DNA of 64,000 bases, from positions 1,445,662 to 1,509,661 of the forward strand of contig MOYA01000001.1 in NCBI GenBank assembly GCA_001899315.1. The letters run 5' to 3'. The position numbers and the translations under genes are program-made. This document shows positions 14,256 through 16,319 of the stretch, piece by piece. The stretch comes from Candidatus Obscuribacter phosphatis (GTDB taxonomy: Bacteria; Cyanobacteriota; Vampirovibrionia; Obscuribacterales; Obscuribacteraceae). The number at the start of each line of letters is the position of its first letter. Positions within the stretch are counted from its first letter, which is position 1. The notes below the pieces were generated by a model. The model was given only the letters and a program-made list of their open reading frames with translations, was not told the DNA's origin and did not search any database.

Positions 14256-14430
14256 TTATTTAAGCCAGCCGTAAGAATCTGTCGAATTATCAAGCAATAG
14301 TAATGAACGTGCAAGCAGTCTCGAATATCTAATAAAATTAAGTGTCTGCCTCTGCGTAGGCAGATATAACCTAAACAGTGGGCTGAAAAACGGCTCTAAG
14401 ACAAAAATTCATATGAGGTATTCATTGGAG

Positions 14431-14664
14431 ATGAAAACAGTAAACATCACCTATTGCGGTTCCTGAGGCTACAAATCGCGAGCCGTCAGTTTGGCGGCTG
14501 AACTCAAGAAAGAATTAGGTCTGGAAGCCACTCTTCATCAATCATACGGCGGTGTGTTTGAAGTCGAAGTCGGCGGTGATCTGATTTTCTCGAAGTCAAA
14601 ATCAGGCAGATTTCCCAATCAGTCGGAAGTGCTTGAGTTATTGAAAGAAAAACAGCTGAGGTAA
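14431..14664 (+). CDS. SelW-like (Rdx family) selenoprotein with in-frame UGA
   Basis: 77 residues if TGA 14464-14466 is read as selenocysteine. The N-terminus reads MKTVNITYCGSUGYKSRAVS, the CxxU redox motif of the SelW/SelT/SelH (Rdx) thioredoxin-like family in its usual place after the first strand. The rest keeps the family layout: helix LAAELKKELGL, strand Y.GVFEVEVGGDLIFSKSKSG, RFPNQSEVLELLKEK, stop TAA 14662. ATG 14413 is an in-frame alternative start. A SECIS-like hairpin lies just after the UGA. The gene ends 2 bases before hemH, whose ribosome binding site sits in its last codons. Likely a cytosolic thiol oxidoreductase. It is easily missed because standard callers stop at the UGA. 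No Sec machinery genes are in this window, so decoding is inferred. Confidence 0.8.
14481..14499 (+). promoter_or_regulatory. bacterial SECIS-like hairpin
   Basis: AGCCGTC (14481-14487) pairs with GGCGGCT (14493-14499), seven pairs including one U-G, around the loop AGUUU. The loop starts 21 bases after the UGA, within the 16-37 base window known for bacterial SECIS elements, and has a G at its second position as expected for SelB recognition. The hairpin lies inside the coding sequence, as is normal in bacteria. Confidence 0.6.
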
Positions 14665-14666
14665 AA

Positions 14667-15677
14667 GTGACCGGAAAATATGATGCTTTGCTATTTCTCT
14701 CCTTTGGCGGACCCGAAGGCATGGATGACGTCATGCCTTTTCTTGCCAATGTTTTGAGAGGCAAGAATGTACCCGAAGCGCGTATGAAAGAAGTAGCTCA
14801 CCACTATGAGCTCTTTGGCGGTGTCTCGCCGATAAATGCGCAGAACAGGAGACTGATTGCCGCTCTCGAAAGCGAATTGAAAGAGCATGGCATCGATTTG
14901 CCAGTCTACTTCGGCAATCGCAATTGGCATCCGATGCTTGCCGATACCCTAAAAGAGATGGCGCAGGCCGGTGTGAAGAAGGCTCTTTGCTTTGTCACCT
15001 CGGCCTATGCCTCTTATTCCGGCTGCAGACAATATCTAGAAGATATAGAAAAGGCGTCCAAAGAGAGTCAAACTTCTATAGAAATTGATAAGTTGCCGGT
15101 GTTCTTCAACCATCCACTGTTTATTGAAGCCAATGTGGATTGTATTGAAAAGGCACTGAAATCGCAGCCGGACGCTCCCAAAACAGTTCAGATTGCCTTC
15201 ACCGCCCACAGCATACCGATGTCTATGGCTAGCGGCTGCGCCTATAAAGAACAGCTGGAAGCGACCTGTCAAATGACCATAGAGGGTCTAGAGAAAAAAG
15301 GTTTTCAGACTGCAGGCTGGTCGCTGGTTTATCAAAGCCGTAGTGGCCCGCCCAGCCAACCTTGGCTGGAACCAGATATCTGCGATCATTTGACCAGCCT
15401 GGCTGAAAATGGCTGCAAGTCGGTCTTGGTGCATCCGATTGGTTTTGTCAGCGACCATATGGAAATCATCTATGATTTGGACACCGAAGCCAGCGCCAAA
15501 GCCAAAGAACTAGGTATGAACTTTATTCGCAGCCTATCGAGCGGCAATAGCGAGCTTTTCAAAAGGCTGATGGGTAAACTTGTTATAGACCAGATAGAAT
15601 TGGTTAATAAAGACCCCGCGTTGGTCTATAAATGTCCTGCCGATTGCTGTAATTACACGCCCGTGCGTCCAGTTTGA
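14667..15677 (+). CDS. hemH: ferrochelatase (probably coproporphyrin ferrochelatase type)
   Basis: Inserts Fe2+ into a porphyrin at the end of heme synthesis. GTG 14667 has GAGG 5 bases upstream, inside the end of the selenoprotein gene. Family motifs: LLFLSFGGPEG (8-18), FTAHSIPMSMA with metal-ligand His181, YQSRSGPPSQPWLEPDI (222-238), and HPIGFVSDHMEIIYDLD with Glu266. The SGPP..PWLEPD form resembles the coproporphyrin-dependent enzymes of Gram-positive and related bacteria. The C-terminus has three cysteines in CPADCC (323, 327, 328), which could bind a [2Fe-2S] cluster as in some bacterial ferrochelatases; that is inference. It sits in a tight plus-strand unit with the selenoprotein and a Lon-N protein. 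Confidence 0.93.
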   Translation: MTGKYDALLFLSFGGPEGMDDVMPFLANVLRGKNVPEARMKEVAHHYELFGGVSPINAQNRRLIAALESELKEHGIDLPVYFGNRNWHPMLADTLKEMAQAGVKKALCFVTSAYASYSGCRQYLEDIEKASKESQTSIEIDKLPVFFNHPLFIEANVDCIEKALKSQPDAPKTVQIAFTAHSIPMSMASGCAYKEQLEATCQMTIEGLEKKGFQTAGWSLVYQSRSGPPSQPWLEPDICDHLTSLAENGCKSVLVHPIGFVSDHMEIIYDLDTEASAKAKELGMNFIRSLSSGNSELFKRLMGKLVIDQIELVNKDPALVYKCPADCCNYTPVRPV

Positions 15678-15680
15678 CAG

Positions 15681-16319
15681 GTGAAGGGTTTGAGCGAAAA
15701 GAGTACTATCATTCCATTGTTTCCTCTACCTGATGTGGTGCTCTTTCCAGGCAGCCCTTTGCCCTTGCACATATTCGAGCCCCGTTACAGACAGATGGTC
15801 AACACCATCTTGGAAGGGGACAGAATATTTGGAGTGCTTTTGTATGAGCCGGTATCTTCGCATGCGCGGGCTATAGGCTGCACGGCAAAACTCATCGATG
15901 TAGAAAAGCTGCCCGATGGACGTCTGAACATACTGACTGAAGGTGACCGTCGCTTTAGAGTGACTCGCACCATCGAAGACCTGCCTTATCTGCAGGGCGA
16001 AGTTGAGTGGCTGGAAGATGAACCCAGTCATACAGACTGCCAGGAAGTGCAAGCCGAAATCATGACCTATATCAAGGACATTTTGCGACTTTCAAGCAAG
16101 ATCAATAATCGCATCGTCGAATTGCCTGAAGACTTGCCCACAGACCCCATGCGCTTATCATTCTGGGTGGCAGGTACGATGTATAGCGTGCCGGAAGACC
16201 AGCAAGCTCTGCTTGAATTGCAAGATACCTACAACCGGTTGAAGCATGAAGCCAAAGTTCTTTCGGTGACAACTAAGTTTTTGGCGGCAAGAAGTGCTCT
16301 CAAGGATGCAGTCGGCTGA
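15681..16319 (+). CDS. Lon N-terminal (LAN/PUA-like) domain protein
   Basis: 212 residues matching the substrate-binding N-domain of Lon protease without the ATPase and protease parts. The opening motif IPLFPLPDVVLFPGSPLPLHIFEPRYRQM (about 11-39) and the later GCTAKLIDVEKLPDGRLNI and GDRRFRV are typical. The C-terminal half is helical. Stand-alone copies are widespread in Cyanobacteria and other bacteria and their role is unclear. GTG 15681 is 3 bases after the hemH stop; TTG 15690, with GAAGGG just ahead, is an alternative start. Co-transcribed with hemH. Confidence 0.85.
   Translation: MKGLSEKSTIIPLFPLPDVVLFPGSPLPLHIFEPRYRQMVNTILEGDRIFGVLLYEPVSSHARAIGCTAKLIDVEKLPDGRLNILTEGDRRFRVTRTIEDLPYLQGEVEWLEDEPSHTDCQEVQAEIMTYIKDILRLSSKINNRIVELPEDLPTDPMRLSFWVAGTMYSVPEDQQALLELQDTYNRLKHEAKVLSVTTKFLAARSALKDAVG

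Follow-up and report, generated by a model that had tools for sequence, protein, structure and literature searches.

Bacterial SelW-like selenoproteins, known for example from Geobacter sulfurreducens and Symbiobacterium, are small standalone proteins with an Rdx domain (PF10262) and an N-terminal CxxU motif, and a SECIS element lies just after their UGA codon (PMC1794560, PMC9312934). By definition (PMC1088965), a bacterial SECIS is a stem-loop that immediately follows the UGA on its 3' side and has a small, G-containing apical loop. Cyanobacteria have been stated to lack the selenocysteine (Sec) trait in 2006 (PMC1794560), in 2015 (PMC5322559) and again in 2022 (PMC9312934), and the first of these papers left open whether the trait had not yet been sequenced or had been lost at the cyanobacterial base. 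A proteome survey of 2022 (PMC9529120) counted a single Sec-bearing 'Candidatus Melainabacteria' protein (PWT95605.1), nothing more. Among the open-access literature, we found no paper describing a Sec system in Obscuribacterales, and none on selenoproteins together with Vampirovibrionia. The original prediction had remarked that selenoproteins are little described in non-photosynthetic relatives of the cyanobacteria; this agrees with the open-access literature on Obscuribacterales, and has to be qualified by the one Melainabacteria protein already noted.

The gene described here, which we call selW, lies in the 64,000-nucleotide stretch of Candidatus Obscuribacter phosphatis DNA that was analysed as a whole (the window), and is alike in each of the above traits, i.e. 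Rdx domain, N-terminal CxxU, adjacent SECIS-like hairpin and small standalone product. Sequence evidence supports the frame, its family, the conserved TGA, the hairpin, the complete machinery and an exchange of Sec and Cys between homologues.

The selW frame and its in-frame TGA

In the window sequence, the frame runs from an ATG at 14431 through the TGA to a TAA at 14662-14664 (Table 1). A TTG at 14425, 5 bases after the GAGGT, is a possible alternative start, and the GAGGT context is the same in the nearest relative (L021). As originally predicted, read-through of the TGA gives a complete 77-residue Rdx protein with C9-G-S-U12, its translation being MKTVNITYCGSUGYKSRAVSLAAELKKELGLEATLHQSYGGVFEVEVGGDLIFSKSKSGRFPNQSEVLELLKEKQLR. 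Residues 3-72 match the Pfam Rdx profile PF10262 (E 6e-20; 71.7 bits, cut-off 22.6), and the product also matches the NCBIfam model CXXU_selWTH (TIGR02174, E 4e-18; 65.6 bits, cut-off 34.2). It had further been claimed that gene callers miss such genes, and routine ORF calling indeed does not list selW here.

Table 1. Positions of selW, its signals and the genes that follow, in window coordinates
Feature	Position	Strand	Basis
Predicted selW-like selenoprotein gene	14431..14664	+	77 residues, Sec at residue 12 (CGSU); sequence, Rdx profile matches
In-frame TGA, predicted to be read as selenocysteine	14464..14466	+	same codon in 44 homologues, Cys in 17; machinery in genome
Likely selW ribosome binding site GAGGT	14415..14419	+	11 bases before ATG 14431, 5 before TTG 14425
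Strongly supported bacterial SECIS hairpin AGCCGUCA-GUU-UGGCGGCU	14481..14499	+	fold, pairing in 42 sequences, covariation, loss in Cys forms
Likely hemH ribosome binding site GAGG	14658..14661	+	sequence; inside last selW codons, 5 bases before hemH GTG
hemH, ferrochelatase, 336 aa, C-terminal CPADCC	14667..15677	+	NF000689 423.7 bits, PF00762 287.6 bits
LON substrate-binding-domain protein	15681..16319	+	PF02190 134.3 bits; 3 bases after hemH

TGA-containing homologues were found across the order: 38 of its 53 genomes have a selW homologue, and 36 of these 38 carry the in-frame TGA, which occupies the CxxU position in every locus read. Those matches that bear names come from Obscuribacterales, Obscuribacter and Melainabacteria MAGs, and TGA-selW is also present in five genomes from two families (f9 and f19) that do not belong to the window's class. 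The sister genome JAIETF010000064, independently binned and assembled, has a 97% identical copy with the same TGA. In close pairs, dN is far below dS after the TGA (0.053 and 0.98, respectively, for L024/L027), and such purifying selection means that the downstream part is translated.

These data bear directly on a pseudogene or sequencing error, in which a Cys codon (TGC or TGT) would have been mutated to, or misread as, TGA. The single-base distance between these codons and the existence of Cys homologues would fit such an origin; however, the recurrence of the TGA in 36 of 53 genomes and in the independent assembly rules it out, and both the selection on the frame and the conservation of a hairpin specific to TGA forms speak against it as well, so that we regard it as exceedingly improbable. 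The seemingly stop-broken frame is, judging from these comparisons, almost certainly an intact gene for a SelW-type selenium redox protein, and assignment of the product as a SelW-like selenoprotein of the Rdx family is very probably correct.

Two further features of the TGA forms were observed. Three genomes each have two TGA-selW copies, and in five TGA forms the usual Gly after the U is replaced by Asn.

A hairpin directly after the UGA

The window hairpin is part of a fold of -14.9 kcal/mol. It spans nucleotides 18-36 counted from the U of the UGA, and starts 17 nt after that U in all 30 folded TGA forms of the order. Its folding energy is better than that of about 99% of codon shuffles, and most relatives lie within 1-2 sd of theirs; the folding energy of one sequence on its own carries little weight, and the SECIS case rests on the comparative data, drawn from 42 distinct TGA homologue sequences. 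Across these, 94.9% of the cells of the eight hairpin pairs hold a standard pair, and sliding one side by 1-3 bases lowers this figure to 14-56%. The six-pair core is intact in 36 of the sequences. All but one of the 42 have AGGUU, AGUUU, GGUCU or AGGCU as their loop, most loops fitting AGKYU or GGUCU.

Codon choice under the hairpin is frozen. For codons +7, +8 and +9, the same-codon probabilities are 1.0, 0.94 and 0.74, against expected values of 0.26, 0.22 and 0.20, with Val encoded by GTC (32/32), Leu by TTG or CTG (41/41) and Arg by AGG (21/22). The codons of conserved residues farther downstream (Gly +29, Val +30) are as variable as the background. Covariation was assessed by ranking all 780 wobble pairs, which serves as a control for relatedness. 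The pair 21-33 links two third-codon positions that the protein sequence leaves unconstrained; 38 of the 42 sequences have a standard pair here, against 23.3 expected, and it ranks first. The stem has one more wobble-wobble pair, 18-36, which ranks second. The 17 Cys homologues lack the stem; the pair 21-33, for example, is standard in 35% of them.

The selW hairpin thus has the 3' position, the small G-containing loop and the RNA-level conservation of a bacterial SECIS, and its identification as such, an element absent from the original prediction, is strongly supported by this comparative evidence.

Selenocysteine machinery and Sec/Cys exchange

The source genome (5.49 Mb, 8 contigs, 95% complete) has the full Sec-decoding set of selA, selB, selD and tRNA-Sec(UCA), each above its cut-off. 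The original prediction had staked its case on selB, selD and tRNA-Sec being present, and it survives on all three. One strong tRNA-Sec match was found (73.7 bits, gathering score 47), which ARAGORN independently calls as tRNA-Sec with anticodon TCA (UCA), together with selB (258.9 bits, cut-off 242), selA (502.3 bits, cut-off 268) and selD (349.1 bits, cut-off 125). Directly after selD lies yedF (TIGR03527; 151.9 bits, cut-off 110), which in many bacteria accompanies selD as a selenium-linked partner (PMC5322559). The gap between the two is 2 bases (L017:1456-3200), and YedF is a selenium-linked SirA/DsrE two-domain protein. All five genes are located on the same 3.2 Mb contig (C1) as the window, and contamination from another organism is therefore unlikely. 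Along this contig selA, selB, selD and tRNA-Sec are scattered and do not form one sel operon. A second selenoprotein of the AhpC-TSA peroxiredoxin type was sought in the source genome; none of the 11 matches has an in-frame TGA.

Some candidate phyla recode UGA, and the genome does contain a UGA-reading tRNA. One might hence suppose that a changed code or a suppressor inserts one of the ordinary residues Trp, Cys or Gly in selW. That tRNA, however, fits the tRNA-Sec model with its UCA anticodon, TGA works as a stop in this genome, being the stop codon of hemH, the substitute residue in relatives is mostly Cys, and selA, selB, selD and the SECIS are all present. Recoding was rejected on the first two of these grounds, and we consider it very improbable. 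Selenocysteine being the preferred reading, the hairpin would recruit SelB carrying Sec-tRNA(Sec), and the ribosome would insert selenocysteine at residue 12 with no stop. The product would be a small redox protein of thioredoxin-like fold, in which the Cys9/Sec12 pair may exchange a selenenylsulfide with thiol partners. We infer both Sec insertion and redox activity from the sequence.

The distribution of tRNA-Sec follows that of TGA-selW. Within the order, tRNA-Sec was found in 34 of the 36 genomes with TGA-selW versus 8 of the 17 without (Fisher p 2e-4), and at the genus level in 15/15 versus 4/10 (p 1.2e-3), both tests ignoring shared ancestry. The two TGA-selW genomes in which tRNA-Sec was not found are fragmented (75% and 88% complete). 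Two genomes that have Cys (G032) or Ser (G020) at the Sec position are both without tRNA-Sec and selA. In three genomes of a sister family, tRNA-Sec and selA are present and a SelW homologue was not found; the client of their machinery is probably another selenoprotein.

The original prediction had also called for a search for CxxC homologues in sister genomes, and Cys forms do occur in relatives and in the source genome itself (17, against 44 TGA forms). The source genome has one Sec copy and, on contig C2, two Cys copies of the CTEC and CGGC types; relatives in genera g1 and g5 also have Cys types. In the protein tree (68 columns only, deep branches not resolved), the CTSU-type Sec forms found in genus g22 fall in one clade with Cys forms of g1 and g5 (CTSC/CTEC), and Sec and Cys have therefore been exchanged. 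One Sec and two Cys SelW proteins in one genome, with machinery-free sisters carrying Cys or Ser, make a clean set for Sec/Cys exchange.

Of 386 sampled genomes from the phylum, eight have a tRNA-Sec, and none of the eight has psaA/psaB; they comprise all 6 genomes with TGA-selW and 2 of the 380 others. Two psaA/psaB genomes with a SelW relative have the Cys form, and tRNA-Sec was not found in them. We tentatively suggest that Sec coding may be an old trait of the Cyanobacteriota, with SelW as a core selenoprotein. The trait would have persisted on the non-photosynthetic side, at least in Obscuribacterales and in some families of a second class, and its loss would have preceded the oxygenic cyanobacteria or come early in their history. 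If true, this would decide the 2006 question of whether the trait had merely escaped sequencing or had disappeared at the root of the phylum.

The hemH neighbourhood and comparison with known systems

The statements of the original prediction on hemH hold: selW ends 2 bases before the GTG of hemH at 14667, and its last codons carry the likely hemH ribosome binding site. The selW gene is probably translated as the leading member of an operon that also contains hemH, with which it would be co-transcribed, and the LON substrate-binding-domain gene is a possible third member. Such linkage was seen at nine loci (L020-L028), all in two genera of the family (g1 and g5), with selW-hemH spacings of -7 to +33 bases, and these copies form one supported all-Sec clade (98/93). 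Elsewhere in the order hemH was not found within the fetched selW flanks, and hemH linkage was rejected as a general rule.

This close spacing or overlap, and the location of the hemH ribosome binding site inside selW, would also suit a regulatory short ORF, which would mostly yield an 11-aa leader and tune hemH through Se-dependent read-through and translational coupling. Against it, the part after the TGA is under purifying selection at the protein level, and TGA-selW is conserved without an adjoining hemH in most genera. The protein itself therefore matters, with coupling at most an addition, and we judge the regulatory explanation unlikely.

Near the ferrochelatase C-terminus, CxxxCC is present in 9/9 hemH-linked loci (CPADCC in the window copy, window 15600-15677). 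A C-terminal Cys motif marks [2Fe-2S] ferrochelatases, and the resemblance of CxxxCC to it suggests a [2Fe-2S] ferrochelatase at these loci. A redox link of the SelW protein to HemH or its cluster is offered as a hypothesis only, and any involvement in haem or Fe-S chemistry would be speculation; no literature was found on SelW together with hemH.

Among described proteins, the SelTWH protein of Campylobacterota (NF041051) provides the best-scoring NCBIfam model, an equivalog that the selW product matches over its full length at 83.6 bits, just under the curated cut-off of 88, so that any placement in this sub-family is provisional. Relatives with solved structures, detectable by sequence match, are mammalian Selenoprotein W (PDB 2npb, E 4e-4) and C17orf37/MIEN1 (PDB 2ljk, E 7e-10), both eukaryotic. 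Mammalian SelW uses a 3'-UTR SECIS. SelW-like selenoproteins are an already known bacterial kind, and the novelty is the phylum. In contrast to those described before, the present selW occurs in Obscuribacterales, in a phylum listed there as without Sec, adjoins hemH in two genera, and has Sec and Cys paralogues in one genome. A complete Sec system, a conserved target gene and a covariation-supported SECIS are thereby documented in a whole order of the non-photosynthetic side of the Cyanobacteriota.
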